Positions 5,269 through 13,127 of a stretch of DNA of 13,127 nt are shown here, piece by piece; within the stretch, counting starts at the first letter, position 1; each line of letters opens with the position of its first letter. The position numbers and the translations under genes were made by a program. Origin of the DNA: Clostridia bacterium (GTDB taxonomy: Bacteria > Bacillota_A > Clostridia > Oscillospirales > CAG-272); NCBI GenBank assembly GCA_017414605.1, contig JAFQLG010000022.1, positions 1 through 13,127 on the forward strand. The letters run 5' to 3'. The notes beneath the pieces were generated by a model. That model had not been told where the DNA came from. It worked only from the letters and a program-made list of their open reading frames with translations, and did not search any database.

Positions 5269-5522
5269 ATTTAGCTTACTTAACTATTTTTGCAGGATTT
5301 CTTTGTCGTTTTGACAACTTGTTAAGTTTGCTTATTTATTTTTGCCATAATTATTAAGTTTATTTAATTAGCCAAGATATATTTGCCGTTTTCGATAAAT
5401 ATATTAAGTTTTATTAACTAAATTTTTATTATGCGCAAAAACTTCAACTCAAATTATTAAGTTTGCTTAATTTATAAGATATTTCGCGTTGAATTTGTGT
5501 CGTATAATTAAGCTTCCTCAAC
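5269..5522. repeat. AT-rich array of operator-like 16-mers (ATTAAGTTTGCTTAAT type)
   Basis: This non-coding stretch holds six related 16-mers at 5269-5284 (on the minus strand), 5321-5336, 5353-5368, 5403-5418, 5456-5471 and 5507-5522. The best copy (5456) is a perfect inverted repeat ATTAAG-TTTG-CTTAAT. The others keep ATTAAG or TTAA arms with mismatches, and the sixth is weak and overlaps the stop of the small gene. Start-to-start distances are 52, 32, 50, 53 and 51, so the set may be a decayed tandem repeat of about 50 bp. Pieces between copies also look alike (AAGATAT...CGCGTT or GCCGTT). It could be a protein-binding array; no function is assigned. Confidence 0.5.
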
Positions 5523-5759
5523 TTCTCCCTCGCGACATATAAGCTGTGCCTTTCCGCCGCGCTTAACATCCAAAATCGCCTGCGCTCCGCCAACCATAAT
5601 GGTTTCGCGACGTTCAAGTCCTATCCCAAATAGCTTTCCTCGAACCGCGAAGCTGTCGCCGTCAACTATAAGCCGGGTCTTTCCAAAGATAGCCGAGCAT
5701 TCGTATTCCACGGTATGATCGCCACCGTCAACCGTGACCGTCCACTTTTGCTTTATCAT
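5508..5759 (-). CDS. Small beta-rich protein resembling one half of FAIM1
   Basis: The 83-residue product has no signal peptide or membrane segment and reads as alternating short beta strands. Its pattern is W6-x-V-x-V, D-G-G-D-H, V-E-Y-E, then G-K-T-R-L-x-V-D-G (26-34), then E-T-I-x-V-G-G-A (52-59) and an alternating hydrophobic strand. This order matches a half domain of the eukaryotic FAIM1 beta sandwich as I remember it, but the match is by eye and distant. A similar small beta protein of unrelated origin is possible. The ATG is preceded by GAGAGGT, and a near-perfect promoter lies upstream, so it is likely a real, independently transcribed gene. The araC-type gene upstream on the same strand ends 85 bp away and may read through. 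Confidence 0.8.
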   Translation of the reverse strand: MIKQKWTVTVDGGDHTVEYECSAIFGKTRLIVDGDSFAVRGKLFGIGLERRETIMVGGAQAILDVKRGGKAQLICREGEVEEA

Positions 5760-5794
5760 AAATTACCTCTCTATTTATTTGTGTTGCATTTGAT

Positions 5795-5844: not shown

Positions 5845-6795
5845 TTATTCCGCTCTTTTGTACTTTTTGGGGCTCTCTCCAAATCGCTCTTTGAAAATGC
5901 GATAAAAATAGCTTTTGTTTTCATAGCCAACGGCAAGCGCAACCTCTTCCACCGAGAGTGGCGTATTCTTGAGCAAAAATGCCGCCTGCGACAAGCGCTT
6001 TTCCTGAAGATGCTCCGTGTAAGTCTTGCCCGTTCTATTCTTTATTTCGCGGCTGAGCCAACAAAAATCGTAATGCAAAAGCCGTGCCGCCTCGCAGAGA
6101 GTTCCGTCCTTATAGTTGTCCTCAATATATCGGAGAACGTCTATTATTGCCCTGTCCTCGCGGTTGTCGTGTGCCAGCTTGTCGGTGTGATTTATGAGCT
6201 GCATAAAGAGCAGTCCCATTGTAGTCTGGTTTATATTTCTCTTGTTGGGAAGATCGTTTATCAAGGTCCAAATAAGGTTTTCAACAAGGTTCTGGACGGG
6301 TAGCACTCCCGACACCTTGAAATGCAGATATCCCCTATTGTCATCACCCAAGAGCGCATGTAGCAAAAAGTTTTTTATCGGCGTCTGTTCTGCCCCCAAC
6401 ATCTCCAGAGTTTTATCGAAAAATGTAGGCTGGATAATAAAATTAACCGCTATATCTCCGGCATCCGCAGGCAATATCTCCTGCTTCGCATTCTGACCGA
6501 GAAAGAGCAGCTCACCCTGCCGCAATATCAGCTTTTTACCGTTAATGATATGCGTGGTTTGCCCCGCGCACATATATACCGCCTCAACGTAATCGTGGGT
6601 ATGCTCGGGAAAGTGGACAAATCGCGTGTGCGTTCTGACCCTTATCAAGCGCCCGTCCGGCACAAGCTTTTTATGCCTTATAACGTTGCCGCCGCTCGTG
6701 GTATATATGCTTCTGTCAACGCCCTCTCCCTCAAGAATGGCTTTTTCCTCATCGGTTATCGGTATGAACATATTGAGTATTTCTTGCCTGATCAT
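5845..6795 (-). CDS. AraC-family transcriptional regulator, probable rhamnose regulator
   Basis: The 316-residue product has the two-part build of sugar-responsive AraC proteins. An N-terminal cupin-like sensing domain includes the FPEHTHDY metal/ligand motif (62-69). A C-terminal pair of helix-turn-helix motifs lies at about 232-253 and 280-303, ending in FGESPKKYKR. It is divergent from rhaB with 142 bp between the starts, as RhaR/RhaS are in other bacteria, so it probably activates rhaBAD in response to L-rhamnose. The substrate is inferred from context. I chose the ATG at 6795, with GAGGT 7 bases upstream. A GTG at 6804 in the same frame would add three residues, but it lies at the predicted transcription start. 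Confidence 0.9.
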   Translation of the reverse strand: MIRQEILNMFIPITDEEKAILEGEGVDRSIYTTSGGNVIRHKKLVPDGRLIRVRTHTRFVHFPEHTHDYVEAVYMCAGQTTHIINGKKLILRQGELLFLGQNAKQEILPADAGDIAVNFIIQPTFFDKTLEMLGAEQTPIKNFLLHALLGDDNRGYLHFKVSGVLPVQNLVENLIWTLINDLPNKRNINQTTMGLLFMQLINHTDKLAHDNREDRAIIDVLRYIEDNYKDGTLCEAARLLHYDFCWLSREIKNRTGKTYTEHLQEKRLSQAAFLLKNTPLSVEEVALAVGYENKSYFYRIFKERFGESPKKYKRAE

Positions 6796-6812
6796 AAAAA
6801 TCACCTCACCTT

Positions 6813-6841
6813 ATATTACCACATATCGAGCAAAAAATCAA
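6813..6841 (-). promoter_or_regulatory. Promoter of the AraC-type regulator gene
   Basis: On the minus strand, TTGATT (6841-6836) and TAATAT (6818-6813) are 17 bp apart. The start would be near 6806, leaving a leader of about 11 nt with an AGGTG ribosome binding site before the ATG at 6795. Confidence 0.6.
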
Positions 6842-6848
6842 TACAAAT

Positions 6849-6879
6849 AAGGACACTTTTTTAGTCAAACGGTGTTCTT
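6849..6879. promoter_or_regulatory. Candidate AraC-type operator for rhaBAD
   Basis: AAGGACAC (6849-6856) and GTGTTCTT (6872-6879) form an inverted repeat with 7 of 8 positions matching and a 15-bp spacer, about two helical turns centre to centre. The right half touches the expected -35 of rhaB, the usual place for an AraC-type activator, and the left half borders the regulator's own -35. Binding is inferred. Confidence 0.5.
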
Positions 6880-6900
6880 TTATTTTTTAGCCTTATGTGC

Positions 6901-6906
6901 TATTAT
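6901..6906 (+). promoter_or_regulatory. -10 box of the rhaBAD promoter
   Basis: TATTAT at 6901-6906 is preceded by TGC, giving an extended -10. The -35 position (6878-6883) is a poor TTTTAT run, as expected for a promoter that needs an activator. The predicted start is near 6913, about 25 nt before the TTG start of rhaB. Confidence 0.55.
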
Positions 6907-6937
6907 TAAGATGAAAAGCTGTGAAAGGAGATATGCC

Positions 6938-8236
6938 TTGACTTATTATTTAGCAATAGATATCGGCGCCTCGTCCGGCAGGCACATCGTTGGCTGGCGA
7001 GAGGACGGTAAAATAAAAACCAACGAGGTCTTCCGCTTTCCAAACGGAGTAAAGGAAAGCGACGGACATCTTGTTTGGGATATAGAGGAGCTATACCAAA
7101 ACGTGATCGCGGGCATCAAAGCGGCGTTTATTCAATACCCAAAGATAGAAAGCCTTTCAATAGATACCTGGGGCGTTGACTACGTACTGCTCAGGGGTGA
7201 GCGCGAGGTGCTCCCCGTTTACGCATACCGCGATAGCCGAACTGAAGCCGTTATTCCACAAGTGCACAGTCAGATTCCCTTCTCCGAGCTTTATGCAAAA
7301 ACGGGTTGCCAATTTCAACCCTTTAACACCGTCTATCAGCTCTATGACGACAAGATCAAGGGGCGCCTGATTGACGTTACCGACGTCTTGATGATACCGG
7401 AATACCTTTTGTGGAAGCTATGCGGAATAAAGGCACGCGAGTTTACAAACGCCACGACTGAGGGCTTGATAAACGCAAAAACGGGAGATTTTGATGCCGA
7501 CATCGTAGCCGCTCTGGGCCTTCCCACGCAGCTGTTTCCAAAGCCTTCAAGCCCCGGGCGAGTGCTTGGCGATCTGCTGCCCGAAGTGGCTCTCCGCACC
7601 GGCGGCAACTGTGCTGTTGTACTATGTGCAACTCACGACACGGCTTGCGCCGTTGAGGGTATCGAAATGGACGCAAACCAACCCTACATCTCCTCTGGCA
7701 CCTGGTCGCTGCTCGGAGTTAAAACGGAGCGCCCGATCACAGACAATGCAAGTCGGCTTGCCAACTACTCAAACGAGGGAGGCGTTGGATACAACCGCTA
7801 TCAGAAAAACATAATGGGAATGTGGCTTGTCAACGAGCTGCGGCGCGAGCTGTGCCTCGACACGTCTTTTGAGGATATTGTAAAAATGGCACAGTCCAGT
7901 AGATGTGGGGCCCTTGTTGATGCCAATTCGCCACAATTTTTATCCCCAAAGAGCATGAGGGCGGCATTCGACGCGGCAACGGGCGGTTTTTCGGACATCG
8001 GCGATTATTTCCGATGCGCTTATCACAGTCTGGCGCAAAGCTACAAGCGCGCCATAGCCGAGCTCGAGGCAAATACGGGCAAGACCTATGAGAAAATATA
8101 CGTTGTCGGCGGAGGGGCCAAAAACGGCTATCTCAATAACCTCACCGAATTGGCGACGGGCAAAAAAATAGTTGCCCTACCCATTGAGGCAACCGCGCTT
8201 GGCAACCTGAAAATACAAATGGAGGCAATCAAATGA
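6938..8236 (+). CDS. rhaB: L-rhamnulokinase
   Basis: RhaB phosphorylates L-rhamnulose at O1 with ATP in the cytoplasm. The 432-residue product belongs to the FGGY/hexokinase-like kinase fold. It has DIGASSGR (8-15) in the N-terminal phosphate loop, WDIEELY and DTWGVDY in domain 1, the catalytic Asp in THDTA (D234), SSGTWSLLG (252-260), and the adenosine-binding VVGGGAKN (389-396). The start is a TTG at 6938, because AAAGGAG (6924-6930) lies seven bases upstream and homology begins at once; an upstream extension to 6872 is less likely. The protein stops at GNLKIQMEAIK, roughly 25 or more residues earlier than RhaB proteins usually end, though the core is complete. Its TGA overlaps the rhaA ATG. 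Confidence 0.94.
   Translation: MTYYLAIDIGASSGRHIVGWREDGKIKTNEVFRFPNGVKESDGHLVWDIEELYQNVIAGIKAAFIQYPKIESLSIDTWGVDYVLLRGEREVLPVYAYRDSRTEAVIPQVHSQIPFSELYAKTGCQFQPFNTVYQLYDDKIKGRLIDVTDVLMIPEYLLWKLCGIKAREFTNATTEGLINAKTGDFDADIVAALGLPTQLFPKPSSPGRVLGDLLPEVALRTGGNCAVVLCATHDTACAVEGIEMDANQPYISSGTWSLLGVKTERPITDNASRLANYSNEGGVGYNRYQKNIMGMWLVNELRRELCLDTSFEDIVKMAQSSRCGALVDANSPQFLSPKSMRAAFDAATGGFSDIGDYFRCAYHSLAQSYKRAIAELEANTGKTYEKIYVVGGGAKNGYLNNLTELATGKKIVALPIEATALGNLKIQMEAIK
8221..8235 (+). promoter_or_regulatory. Strong ribosome binding site and ATG of rhaA
   Basis: A perfect GGAGG (8221-8225) is seven bases before ATG 8233-8235, which overlaps the rhaB TGA as ATGA. This marks the ancestral rhaA start and is the reason for placing the gene start upstream of the TAG at 8248. 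Confidence 0.9.
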
Positions 8237-9471
8237 GTAGATATACATAGGCAAAAAGAATATACGCCGAATACGGTATAGACACGGAAAAGGCGCTGCA
8301 CACGTTGCGCCACGTGTGCATCAGCGTTCATTGCTGGCAGGGCGACGACGTTATCGGCTTTGACAGCCGCGAGTCGCTTTCGGGCGGAATTCAGACCACA
8401 GGCCACTATCCCGGCAAGGCACGCACACCCCAGGAGCTTATGGCGGATTACGACAAGGCGTTCTCGCTCATCGGCGGCAAAAAGAAGCTCAATCTGCACG
8501 CGTCATACGCCATTTTTGAGAAAGGCGAGGAAGTTGGCAGAGATAAGATAGAGCCACGCCATTTTGCAAAATGGGTGCAGTTTGCAAAGGATCGCGGAAT
8601 GGGCATCGACTTTAACCCCACATTTTTCTCGCATCCCATGGTAAAGGACAACCTGACCTTGTCTTCTCCCGATGAAGAGGTCAGAAAATATTGGGTGAAC
8701 CACGGCATTGCCTGCCTTAAAATAGCCGAGTACTTTGCGAACGAAACTGGCATTCCCTGCGTTATGAACATATGGATACCCGATGGATACAAGGAGATCC
8801 CCGCAGACCGTCTGTCGCCGAGAGCACGCTTCAAGGCATCACTTGACGAGATACTCGACACCCCTTACGACAAGTCAAAGGTATACGTAACGCTTGAAAG
8901 CAAGGTGTTCGGCATAGGACTTGAAAGCTACACGGTTGGAAGCGCGGAATTCTGCCTTTCCTACTCCGATCATAAGGGCATAACGCCCCTTATGGACAAC
9001 GGCCACTATCACCCAACCGAGATGGTGAGCGACAAAATATCGTCGCTCCTGCTTTTCAACGAAAAGATAGCTCTGCACGTAACGCGCGCGGTGCGCTGGG
9101 ATAGCGATCACGTTGTAATATTTGATGATGAAACTCGCGAGATAGCCAAGGAGATCGTCAGAAATAACGCCCTTAACCGCGTGTTTATCGCTACAGACTA
9201 TTTTGATGCGTCCATAAACCGCATTTCCGCTTGGGTAACGGGTGTCAGAAGTCTGCAAAAGGCGCTGCTCTTCGCCCTGCTCCAGCCCCATGCAGAGCTT
9301 AAAGCAAAGCAGGATCAAAACAACTTTACCGACGTGATGTATCTTTCGGAAGAGATGAAAACAATGCCATTAGGTGACGTCTGGAATGAATTTTTGAGCC
9401 GCGAGAGCGTTCCTCACAACTATTTGTGCGAGGTCAGAAAATACGAAAGCGAGGTCTTGGCAAAGAGATGA
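8233..9471 (+). CDS. rhaA: L-rhamnose isomerase with in-frame TAG at codon 6
   Basis: RhaA converts L-rhamnose to L-rhamnulose with a divalent metal (Mn or similar) in a TIM barrel. Read from 8233 it begins M-S-R-Y-T, then TAG at codon 6 (8248-8250), then AKRIYAEYGIDTEKAL and on without interruption for 412 positions, close to the usual length. Conserved parts include HCWQGDD (33-39), NIWIPDG, ESKVFG and ESYTVGS (metal and substrate loops), DNGHYHPTE (255-263) and RWDSDHV (288-294). Relatives have Gln where the TAG is, so CAG to TAG is the likely change. TTG at 8305 could restart translation, keeping the active site but losing the first 24 residues; its upstream AAGG is 11 bases away and weak. 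The gene may therefore be broken, rescued by restart or suppression, or the base may be an error. Confidence 0.9.
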
Positions 9472-10292
9472 AAAACATTTTAAGCGCTCCTTTTGTTGAG
9501 CAAATGAAAAAGACCACTGCCAACATGTACCGTCTGGGCTGGGACGAGCGCAACGGAGGCAATATCAGCTATATGCTTGAGGAAGATGAGGTTGCGGAGT
9601 ATCTTGACTTAAGCCGCGTTATCCGCGAGATACCCTTGGGTTTTGACGCGAGCGCCCTTGTGGGCAAAATATTCATCGTTACGGGAACGGGCAAATATTT
9701 CAAGAACGTAACGGATGATCCCGAGGCAAATCTCGGCATAATCCGCATAGGCAAAAGCGGTAACGTTGCCGAGCTTTTGTGGGGATACAGCGACGGCGGC
9801 CGCTTTACAAGTGAGCTCCCGGCACACCTTATGAGCCATATCGCGCGCCTTTCCGTTGACCCCGACAACCGCGTTATCATGCATTCACACCCCACTCATA
9901 CTCTGGCAATGAACTACGTTCACGAGTTGAACGAGAAAAAGCTCACGCATACACTCTGGGAGATGTGCACCGAATGTATCGTGGTCTTTCCGGACGGAGT
10001 TGGCGTTCTGCCATGGATGCTTTGCGGCACAAACGAGATAGGCAAGGCAACCGCAGAAAAAATGAGGCAATTCCGCCTTGTTATCTGGGGAATGCACGGC
10101 ATATACGGCGCGGGCAAGACAATGGACGAAACCTTTGGCCTGATCGAAACCGTTGAAAAAGCGGCCCAGATCTATATGCTGACCGCTCATCTTCCCCGCA
10201 TAAATACAATAAAGGACGATGAGCTTGTAAGGCTTGCCGAGTTCTTTGGAGTAAATTACAGAAAAGACTTTTTGGATAACAAAAGATCGTAG
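9468..10292 (+). CDS. rhaD: L-rhamnulose-1-phosphate aldolase
   Basis: RhaD cleaves L-rhamnulose 1-phosphate to dihydroxyacetone phosphate and L-lactaldehyde, and is a zinc-dependent class II aldolase of the AraD/FucA fold. The 274 residues equal the usual RhaD length. The zinc and catalytic residues are visible: E116 in TSELPAH, H139 and H141 in MHSHPTH, and H210 in WGMHG. The GWDERNGGNIS segment (24-34) is the family's phosphate-binding region. The ATG at 9468 overlaps the rhaA TGA (ATGA), which suggests translational coupling; the nearest Shine-Dalgarno is weak. It ends in TAG, showing that TAG acts as a stop in this genome. A terminator follows at 10325. Confidence 0.95.
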   Translation: MKNILSAPFVEQMKKTTANMYRLGWDERNGGNISYMLEEDEVAEYLDLSRVIREIPLGFDASALVGKIFIVTGTGKYFKNVTDDPEANLGIIRIGKSGNVAELLWGYSDGGRFTSELPAHLMSHIARLSVDPDNRVIMHSHPTHTLAMNYVHELNEKKLTHTLWEMCTECIVVFPDGVGVLPWMLCGTNEIGKATAEKMRQFRLVIWGMHGIYGAGKTMDETFGLIETVEKAAQIYMLTAHLPRINTIKDDELVRLAEFFGVNYRKDFLDNKRS

Positions 10293-10382: not shown

Positions 10383-13127
10383 TTACTGCCTTGTGATGCG
10401 GATCGTAGCCGTAGGCTCTTCACCCTCGGTTATCTCAACTATTTCTATCGTGTAGCCAAACTCGGTGCGGTCGTCCATAAGTCCGTTATGGAAAAACTCG
10501 GTGTATTCTTCAACCTTAAAGACATCGCCTGCCAAGAAGAGATCGTCCTTGCTCAGCTGAGTTCGAAGATTAGCGAGATCGGTAAAGGTATTGTCGCCGC
10601 CTCTCTGAATGACCTCAAGGAGATAGGAGCCTTTTTCGTTATACGAGTTGGTTTTGTTTATAGTTCCGATAGGATAGAGTGTTTCTTCCGTTTCTCCCTC
10701 GGGAACGAGGCCATCTATGTCAACGTCGCGCGCCTCCATAGTACCGTTAACGTGAGATATGCGTATGCCAAGCGCGCCGCCAAGCCCGTTAGCCGCCGCA
10801 TCAACCGCGTTGACGCCGAGGTCGGTAAACAGGTCTATAATGATGTATTCGCAGAAAGGTGTGCCGTTATAATCGCTGTCAGCACCCGGGATAACGATGG
10901 CTTCACCCGTGGTTGCCAATGCGCCTATCGTTACCTCAACGCTCTCGCCCGACTCAAGAGAATCAGGGAGTATCACCTCGGGTGATATCCAGCCAACCGA
11001 GTACTTGGAGTAAGCGTTCCAGTCACCCGAGTTGCCCGATTGCATATCAAAGCCTCCAACCGCATTGATACCCGTGTAGGTTACGTCATAGTAATCCACG
11101 ATTCCGAGATTGTGGCCAAACTCGTGTATGATAACGTTGCCATCAATACTGTCTATCGGGATATTGGAATAGCAGTTTATGCCAAGCTTGCCGTCTGCGC
11201 CCGCGCCCTTGGGGGTGTAGAAATTCTGGGTCATGGTTCCTACAGTCTGTACGTTTATAAATATAACGGAATCAAAATATCCGTTTTCGTCGCCGTCAAA
11301 TGCGGAGAAATCCATATCGGGATACATCTCGTATACCTTGTCTATGATCTCCGATGCGACCTCATGGCTCAAAGCAAAGGTGTTGTCGGCGCGGTTACGA
11401 TCCATGTAGCACCAATCGGTTAAGAAAGACGTTATCTTAAGCTTTCCGTATGATGCCGTGTTAAAGTAATCGCTAAGCGAATGCTTTTGGCGCAGGGTGG
11501 CGTCGGTATAGTCTGTAACGTTGCCGTCCTCATCCATCACGCGACCAAGAGCCCGAAGTATCTCTGCAAGCTGTTCATCCGTCACAACGTCGGGCGTATC
11601 CTGCCAAACGATAGGAACAACGAGAACGTTGAGTTCAACGTCAACCACCGCAGGATAAGCGTTTGGCACAAGCTGATTGTTGTTATTTGCGTCATTTTTG
11701 CGAGGAAGCACCCATAAGGGAGCGGGCAGCGTGTAATCGCCAATGGTAACGTCAATGGTGGCACCCGGCTTTAAGCCGTCCTTTTCCTTATCCATAACGT
11801 TTCCGTCCTTGTCGCGCAGATCACCTACCGTGAACCACTCGTCCGACTCAAAGGTTGTATTGATGTATATCTCGTGATTGCCTATATATCCCTCGGGCTT
11901 AACGGCATATTTCAAATAGAAGCTATATTGATTTATTTCGGGGCGGAACACCTCTCTTGAAGGATCGTAAAACTCGCCGTACATATAAGACCCTGTAAAG
12001 TGTCGGTCAAAATCACGCGCCAGGATACTTGCGGTATAGCTTTCGGTATCATAATATATGACCAGCTTATCCACCTCATAGTTGTTTTCTTTTTCATGCT
12101 CAAAGCCGCGCGTCGACAAAAGCGAGAAGAAGTTGCCCTGTGTGTCATATGCCATGATGCGGAAATAATCCTGAGCTCCGCGGATATTGCTGTTGCCGTT
12201 CCTATTTCCCTTATAAAGCTCCGCGGGGCTGTCAACGCTCAGCTTGCTTGCCTTAAAGGTATAAGCCGGCTCATACATAACGCCGAAATAGTTGGGAAAT
12301 TCTCCGGTGGTGTGAACGTCGGTTGCCAAAATGCGTCCCAACGCGTCAAGGCTCCATATGCCGCCACCGTCCTTCATATAGAGATTTCCGTTCTTGTACT
12401 CTACGTTTTGCCCGTAAAAGCGTATGACCCTGCCATCAGGCGAGGTTGCGCTGAAGGTGAGAACTCCATCCTCGCCCTGCACTACGCTGTCCTCAATTAT
12501 ATTTTCAAGCACGTCAAAGGCGTAGAGATCCGCCCAATAGAAATCATAGTCTTGAGCTAAAACGGCCATCTCAAAGGGATATGCGTAAGGCTTTCTTTCC
12601 GAAAGCTCACCGAAAATATCCAAAACAAGCTCGCATCCGATATCTATTTCGTTTTTGTCCGCATCAAGAGGTATTACCTCGATGCCGTATCCGCGGGGAA
12701 GATACGTATGGTTGTAGCTGCTTGCGTATTGGTATGCAATATTGGTATATTCTATAACGTCTACCCTCTCACCATCTTCAAGGGTGTAAACCTTTATAAG
12801 ATAATAAGCAGCGTCGGGGACCACGTCCCAATCCGCGCTTCCGAAATCATTCGCCGGGTACACACTTATAGAATACGGCGGCTCGGTTTCCTCGGGCACG
12901 GACTCGGTAGTTTCCGTAGTTGCAGGCTCGGTCGTTTCCGTAGTCGTGGGCTCGGTCGTTTCCGTAGTCGCAGGCTCGGTTGTTTCCGTGGTCGCAGGCT
13001 CGGTGGTTTCCGTAGTTACGGGCTCGGTGGTTTCCGTAGTTACGGGCTCGGTCGTTTCCGTAGTTGCGGGCTCGGTCGTTTCCGTAGTCGCGGGCTCGGT
13101 CGTTTCCGTAGTCGCGGGCTCGGTAGT
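10383..13127 (-). CDS. Secreted M6-family metalloprotease (immune-inhibitor-A-like), 5' end outside the window
   Basis: The frame is open to the right edge, so the N-terminus is missing, including the expected signal peptide. About 914 residues are visible. From the N-side there are 9.4 copies of a PATTETTE linker (codes 13127-12903), then a fibronectin-III-like or similar beta region, a long beta-rich segment, and the M6 catalytic domain. The zinc motif HEFGHNLGIVD is coded at 11126-11094, followed by GGFDMQSGN (Met-turn) and YSKYSVGW, which fit the M6 family. It has no membrane anchor in the visible C-terminus. It probably degrades extracellular protein; a GTG at 12899 is not taken as start because the repeats continue in frame. 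Transcription ends at the shared terminator. Confidence 0.9.
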   Translation of the reverse strand, partial: TTEPATTETTEPATTETTEPATTETTEPVTTETTEPVTTETTEPATTETTEPATTETTEPTTTETTEPATTETTESVPEETEPPYSISVYPANDFGSADWDVVPDAAYYLIKVYTLEDGERVDVIEYTNIAYQYASSYNHTYLPRGYGIEVIPLDADKNEIDIGCELVLDIFGELSERKPYAYPFEMAVLAQDYDFYWADLYAFDVLENIIEDSVVQGEDGVLTFSATSPDGRVIRFYGQNVEYKNGNLYMKDGGGIWSLDALGRILATDVHTTGEFPNYFGVMYEPAYTFKASKLSVDSPAELYKGNRNGNSNIRGAQDYFRIMAYDTQGNFFSLLSTRGFEHEKENNYEVDKLVIYYDTESYTASILARDFDRHFTGSYMYGEFYDPSREVFRPEINQYSFYLKYAVKPEGYIGNHEIYINTTFESDEWFTVGDLRDKDGNVMDKEKDGLKPGATIDVTIGDYTLPAPLWVLPRKNDANNNNQLVPNAYPAVVDVELNVLVVPIVWQDTPDVVTDEQLAEILRALGRVMDEDGNVTDYTDATLRQKHSLSDYFNTASYGKLKITSFLTDWCYMDRNRADNTFALSHEVASEIIDKVYEMYPDMDFSAFDGDENGYFDSVIFINVQTVGTMTQNFYTPKGAGADGKLGINCYSNIPIDSIDGNVIIHEFGHNLGIVDYYDVTYTGINAVGGFDMQSGNSGDWNAYSKYSVGWISPEVILPDSLESGESVEVTIGALATTGEAIVIPGADSDYNGTPFCEYIIIDLFTDLGVNAVDAAANGLGGALGIRISHVNGTMEARDVDIDGLVPEGETEETLYPIGTINKTNSYNEKGSYLLEVIQRGGDNTFTDLANLRTQLSKDDLFLAGDVFKVEEYTEFFHNGLMDDRTEFGYTIEIVEITEGEEPTATIRITRQ
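12903..13127 (-). repeat. 24-bp tandem repeat coding a PATTETTE linker
   Basis: Nine complete exact-period 24-bp units (12903-13118) and a part-unit reach the edge. Each codes P-[A/V/T]-T-T-E-T-T-E on the minus strand: six A, two V and one T variant. The unit keeps the reading frame and the copies are very similar, so copy number could change by slippage. Such Thr/Pro-rich stretches are common linkers in secreted Clostridia proteins. Confidence 0.95.

Follow-up and report, generated by a model that had tools for sequence, protein, structure and literature searches.

How can a gene for L-rhamnose isomerase that seems intact over almost its whole length carry a stop codon only five codons behind its start, and what would become of its product? 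This question is raised by rhaA in the window analysed here, a stretch of 13,127 nucleotides from a Clostridia bacterium in which the gene order is rplJ, rplL, glycine-tRNA ligase (minus strand), an UmpAB-like antiporter, a P-II-like gene, a small gene, an AraC-family gene (minus strand), rhaB, rhaA, rhaD, and an M6-peptidase-like gene (minus strand). The features on which the argument turns are as follows:

5845..6804, minus strand: AraC-family regulator, divergent from rhaBAD, with RhaS as its best NCBIfam match (79.8 bits, cut-off of 288 not reached)
6938..8236, plus strand: rhaB, rhamnulokinase, 432 amino acids, TTG start, intact; TIGR02627, E 1.1e-116
8221..8225, plus strand: Shine-Dalgarno GGAGG of rhaA, 7-nt spacer to ATG 8233
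8233..8250, plus strand: rhaA codons 1-6, ATG to TAG; 0 stops at codon 6 in the 115 loci read
8251..9471, plus strand: remainder of rhaA, 406 open codons and TGA; NF002203 match, invariant columns kept
8305..8307, plus strand: TTG, first in-frame ATG/GTG/TTG after the stop, candidate restart with a weak AAGG upstream, judged weak
9468..10292, plus strand: rhaD, rhamnulose-1-phosphate aldolase, intact, ending in TAG; TIGR02624, 415 bits, cut-off 400.95

From ATG 8233 the frame reads M-S-R-Y-T-stop-A-K, with the in-frame TAG at 8248-8250 (codon 6), and an open frame from the rhaA start codon is consequently absent. Past the TAG, 406 sense codons follow up to the TGA at 9469-9471, and the total, when the stop is counted as one residue, comes to 412, a length found in 87 of the 120 listed homologues (411 in 31 more). 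A perfect GGAGG with its ATG, more than 400 open codons after the stop, and an otherwise intact rhaA had all been reported in a preliminary description of this DNA, and each of these points held. In the NCBIfam profile search, codons 25-412 reached 587.5 bits against NF002203 (cut-off 572) and 541.6 against TIGR01748 (cut-off 584.95), the N-terminus having been left out of the query. Furthermore, of 204 columns that do not vary among 28 relatives, the window gene keeps 202, the two exceptions being N58 to H and D188 to E. Since the interrupted gene is otherwise intact in frame, length, and conserved residues, the placement of the TAG is more than a chance matter. The locus is like known L-rhamnose isomerase RhaA (NF002203, TIGR01748; PDB 3p14, 1d8w) in that codons 25-412 score over the NF002203 cut-off, and like RhaA systems in that its operon holds a kinase, an aldolase, and an AraC-type regulator; it is unlike RhaA in that the stop cuts the start codon off from the remaining frame.

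The neighbouring genes of the operon are whole. The match of rhaB to TIGR02627 (390 bits) lies under the cut-off of that model (527.95), and rhaD, with 274 amino acids and its TAG stop at 10290-10292, covers positions 1-270 of 270 of TIGR02624. As had been claimed, ATGA overlaps flank rhaA on both sides, joining the rhaB TGA to the rhaA ATG at 8233-8236 and the rhaA TGA to the rhaD ATG at 9468-9471; among 19 relatives checked, the corresponding rhaA/rhaD-like junction showed the same ATGA in 10, a one-base overlap in two, and neither in seven. These overlaps suggest that translation of RhaB, RhaA, and RhaD is coupled. Through the ATGA that rhaA shares with rhaD, a loss of RhaA would probably lower RhaD as well, and the earlier proposal that loss of rhaA affects RhaD coupling is plausible in the light of the two overlaps and of published reinitiation data (PMC10666635). 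Other broken frames were not seen among the named genes of the window, a look that was not a systematic test, and searches of the window with Rfam (gathering thresholds) and ARAGORN returned no match. Outside the operon, the M6-peptidase-like gene (10383-13127, minus strand) carries TTEPATTE-type repeats and extends past the window edge.

The backbone genes of the window match the genus of genome G318. At the DNA level, its glycine-tRNA ligase gene is 85-87% identical to that of eight genomes in one small genus (n = 12), while the remaining four gave one partial match of 83%, two of 69-70%, and one no match. This genus is probably a gut Clostridia lineage, given the family that it has in common with genome G001 (L001), from roe deer cecum. 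In eight genus-mate regions (L145-L152), the ligase gene shares its stretch with umpAB, the P-II gene, and the small gene; the small gene (5514-5762, minus strand) is kept in the genus at 55-70% in the eight regions and has a weak Pfam match to FAIM1, under the cut-off. At that spot, none of the eight regions, which reach 3.3 to 10.9 kb past the small gene, yielded a match to araC, rhaB, rhaA, or rhaD (E 1e-10). A genus-type rhaA was found elsewhere in 10 of the 12 genomes, with 60-66% identity to the window rhaA (one copy is a contig-end fragment), and no window-type rhaB or rhaD matched near it in the six loci examined (L153-L158). In one of these, L153, the genus-type rhaA (8049-9299) has a type I asparaginase, a reductase, and AraC-type regulators as neighbours. 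The same order araC-rhaB-rhaA-rhaD was met in L005 (genome G005), with identities of 70, 47, 80, and 86%, respectively. It was also observed that the window rhaB is only 43-47% identical to rhaB of L004 and L005, although rhaA reaches 80-82%. From these comparisons, the rhamnose operon (5845-10292) was probably gained horizontally in the window lineage, the alternative being loss of the operon in the eight genus-mates.

The preliminary description had placed Gln (CAG) at codon 6 in relatives, and this proved wrong for most of them. Of 120 listed proteins, 119 could be read at this position (P0053 was left out, as its predicted start lies downstream of codon 6), and they carry Glu in 117, Ser in one, and Asp in one. 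In the DNA of 115 loci, codon 6 specifies Ser in 36, Glu in 33 (27 GAA and 6 GAG), Tyr in 19, Gln in four (all CAG), other residues in 23, and a stop in none; these loci come from 144, of which 121 had a match, and are not all independent, as two overlapping collections contributed duplicates. The six matched loci left unread are L001, at a contig end, and L052, L057, L113, L132, and L137, which are without the anchoring motif. One fairly close locus (L010, 79% identity) carries CAG. Codon 6 of rhaA, as aligned across these sequences, thus tolerates many residues, and a C-to-T change is only one possible origin of the TAG, since Gln/CAG holds for a minority of relatives. A comparison of related strains for CAG or TAG had been proposed; the 115 loci read here show four CAG codons and no stop.

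A common stop in relatives was also sought in 395 family genomes with a narrow exact pattern (this start type plus TAG at codon 6), which differently spelled starts would escape, and no true case was found. The sole match, in G018 (L114, 1501-1524), was rejected as a coincidence: it lies inside rhaA in another frame, and a reversed control pattern also matched once. Likewise, the start-region DNA, with the first base of codon 6 left free, had no match in viral contigs. The nearest rhaA DNA among 390 family genomes is 76% identical, so these genomes hold no close copy, and the closest proteins among the best 120, drawn from the 7995 candidates sharing most words that were scored, are 88-90% identical, with none above 90%. 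Two of these homologues are unusual in themselves. P0001, of 617 residues, carries a stretch of about 200 residues in tandem repeat, by internal duplication or as an assembly artefact, and P0053, of 403 residues, has its predicted start at a Met equivalent to codon 10, either a disturbed start or a choice of start prediction. Codon 10 (8260-8262) is ATA in the window and Met, hence a spare start, in 43 of the 120 listed relatives.

Over codons 7-412, comparison of the window with L002-L005 and L010 gave pN of 0.13-0.16 vs pS of 0.68-0.91. Against all five loci, synonymous change has reached or come close to saturation, and because dS was not computable or exceeded 1.7 in all five window pairs, pN/pS and tree lengths were used. 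On these sequence comparisons, rhaA was under purifying selection until recently. In a FastTree phylogeny of 127 rows with a genus-type rhaA as outgroup, the window root-to-tip path (0.708) lies below the median of 0.736 over 126 rows (range, 0.679-0.862). At 0.104, its end branch ranks fifth in length among 127, at a position without strong support, and is long because no close relative is present in the tree set. In the remaining rhaA, 127 of 406 codons are one change away from a stop, and no second stop occurs over these 406 codons; under neutral change, the probability of another stop would reach 95% at about 0.07 changes per site, in an estimate that assumes a transition weight of 2 and ignores indels. 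The marks of an old pseudogene, namely further lesions and faster change, were thus not seen. As rhaA is without a second lesion and its path is not lengthened, three readings are left: a young stop, a gene that is still in use, or a wrong base. Behind the TAG, the first 24 codons, which reach just past TTG 8305, show pN of 0.17-0.28 vs 0.09-0.28 among the other loci; they are no less conserved than in relatives, a result that does not separate these three possibilities. Judged by the alignment and the tree, the stop looks young.

Whether TAG terminates in this lineage was assessed in genus-mates, which stand in for the RF1 and tRNAs of the window organism itself. Among long mechanical ORFs, not all of which are genes, TAG was the terminator of 4 of 129 in genus-mates, 14 of 260 in G253 (401 kb), and 6 of 194 in G193 (318 kb); L145 and L146 enter more than one of these ORF sets. 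A protein comparison limited to 20 and 22 alignments, some of them in spurious frames, showed a few internal stops, including one TAG in an alignment apparently out of frame, and was given no weight. Moreover, rhaA itself ends in TAG in two of the 19 relatives checked (L011 and L021). RF1 was above the cut-off in 10 of the 12 genus genomes, although the match in G331 holds one TGA, and G303 has sub-threshold RF1 pieces on two contigs. No RF1 match exceeded the cut-off in G253, the closest genus-mate by umpAB, where the sole match (255 bits) resembles the second match of the other genomes, probably RF2. The gene for threonylcarbamoyladenylate synthase, which adjoins prfA in G193 and G318, was not found in G253 either, in a search run without a positive control, and for this reason the prfA stretch is probably missing from that assembly.

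A search for a CUA-anticodon tRNA, as had been recommended, found none among 35 tRNAs in G253 (ARAGORN), all with ordinary anticodons; this genome of a relative is incomplete, and so is its tRNA set, from which those for Ala, Asn, Ile, Pro, and Trp are missing. A pattern scan for CUA tRNAs was negative in all 12 genus genomes (0/12), and so was its tRNA-Gln (UUG) control (0/12), though G253 has that tRNA according to ARAGORN, which leaves the scan uninformative. PylS gave no match over the cut-off in the same 12 genomes, and pyrrolysine at TAG was rejected on that ground; seven weak matches (20-31 bits) fall in frames of 586-810 residues. The chance that this lineage reads TAG as a sense codon is close to nil: the lack of an RF1 match over the cut-off in G253 and the lack of TAG-ending frames among 13 long ORFs in one 16.8-kb region of that genome (L145) would speak for it, and against it stand the 14 of 260 long mechanical ORFs that end in TAG over 401 kb of G253, the probable assembly gap behind its missing RF1, the lack of a CUA tRNA among those found there, and the TAG at which the window rhaD stops at normal length. 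General recoding was rejected on the basis of TAG usage and RF1 in genus-mates together with the rhaD stop, in line with the preliminary description, which had considered TAG an unlikely sense codon.

Restart of translation at TTG 8305, an option raised previously, was weakened by its distance from the stop and by the helices it would remove. Such a restart, or one at GTG 8314, would yield a shortened, working RhaA of about 388 residues, and the weak AAGG upstream of the in-frame TTG and the NF002203 score of the gene from codon 25 are consistent with it. However, the TTG lies 54 nt beyond the TAG, whereas in a reporter study reinitiation at 38 nt was already down by 80-90% in two Escherichia coli gene pairs and abolished in a third (PMC10666635). 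Furthermore, in the modelled structure of homologue P0002, where pLDDT averages 80.7 overall and 90-96 in each of the first three blocks of ten residues, predicted helices 3-12 and 18-26 precede the first strand (29-34), and a start at codon 25 would lose the first helix and most of the second; the fragment also falls under the TIGR01748 cut-off (541.6 vs 584.95). A functional product by this route is therefore very unlikely, though there may be a weak independent start downstream of the stop.

Taken together, the explanation that we consider probable is that codon 6 of rhaA recently mutated to a stop, a change either fixed or still segregating, and that the rhamnose operon around it was probably acquired horizontally. 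A recent pseudogene was among the options offered earlier, and a recent nonsense lesion fits best with the stop, the intact remainder, the lack of a stop in the relatives read, the use of TAG as a terminator in genus-mates, and the ordinary root-to-tip path. If the base is real, ribosomes would initiate at the strong ATG 8233 and release a five-residue peptide at TAG 8248; RhaA would largely not be made, its activity being mostly or wholly lost, and translation of RhaD would probably be lowered via the ATGA overlap. Against a young nonsense allele, post-stop conservation would be expected as well if ribosomes still read through the TAG, the end branch is the fifth longest in the tree, RF1 over the cut-off is absent in G253, and a consensus error would look identical. 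Such an error, or a minority allele picked by the assembler, with rhaA intact in the organism, is the main rival and a possible one, clearly less likely than a real lesion. It agrees with a change confined to a single codon of an otherwise intact gene, with relatives that read without a stop, and with the lack of any protein above 90% identity among the best 120, none of which can thus count as an independent sequence of the species. Substitution errors are, however, uncommon in well-covered consensus sequences, and the other named genes of the window showed no broken frame in a look that was not systematic.

Leaky reading of the amber codon at a low level, by a near-cognate or suppressor tRNA, would supply a little full-length RhaA, and since codon 6 varies widely, slight readthrough might give a working enzyme. 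The conserved codons after the stop accord with this, as does the report that constrained bacterial genes with in-frame stops are widespread, with possible lowering of expression (Belinky et al., 2021; PMC7918605). We nevertheless regard it as improbable, given that the 35 tRNAs found in the incomplete G253 genome include no CUA anticodon, that PylS was under the cut-off in all 12 genus genomes, that TAG terminates in genus-mates, and that the stop occurs in no relative read. A still more doubtful extension, to which we attach very little probability, is that the TAG is kept as a leaky brake, where inefficient amber readthrough at this variable position would hold RhaA and the coupled RhaD low and would serve the acquired sugar operon as a reversible switch.

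Among bacterial genes under purifying selection, in-frame stops have been described as widespread and mostly short-lived, on a polymorphism scale, with carbohydrate transport and metabolism (6126 cases) among the commonest categories, and that study also discusses readthrough and lowered expression (Belinky et al., 2021; PMC7918605). The rhaA described here resembles those cases in that one in-frame stop interrupts a gene which purifying selection otherwise constrains, and in its apparent youth, and differs from that set, which comprises stops common to two or more species, in that the window stop was seen once. Our literature search found no paper joining rhaA, rhamnose isomerase, and a premature stop.

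In brief, the window case is of the ordinary kind: rhaA, apparently an acquired gene, probably carries a real and young nonsense allele, and a consensus error is the main rival. The weight of the finding would rise only if strains had the stop in common and still made RhaA. As it stands, it adds one more probably young loss-of-function allele, in an apparently newly acquired sugar operon, and illustrates that homology searches can see such a gene as intact despite its cut-off start.
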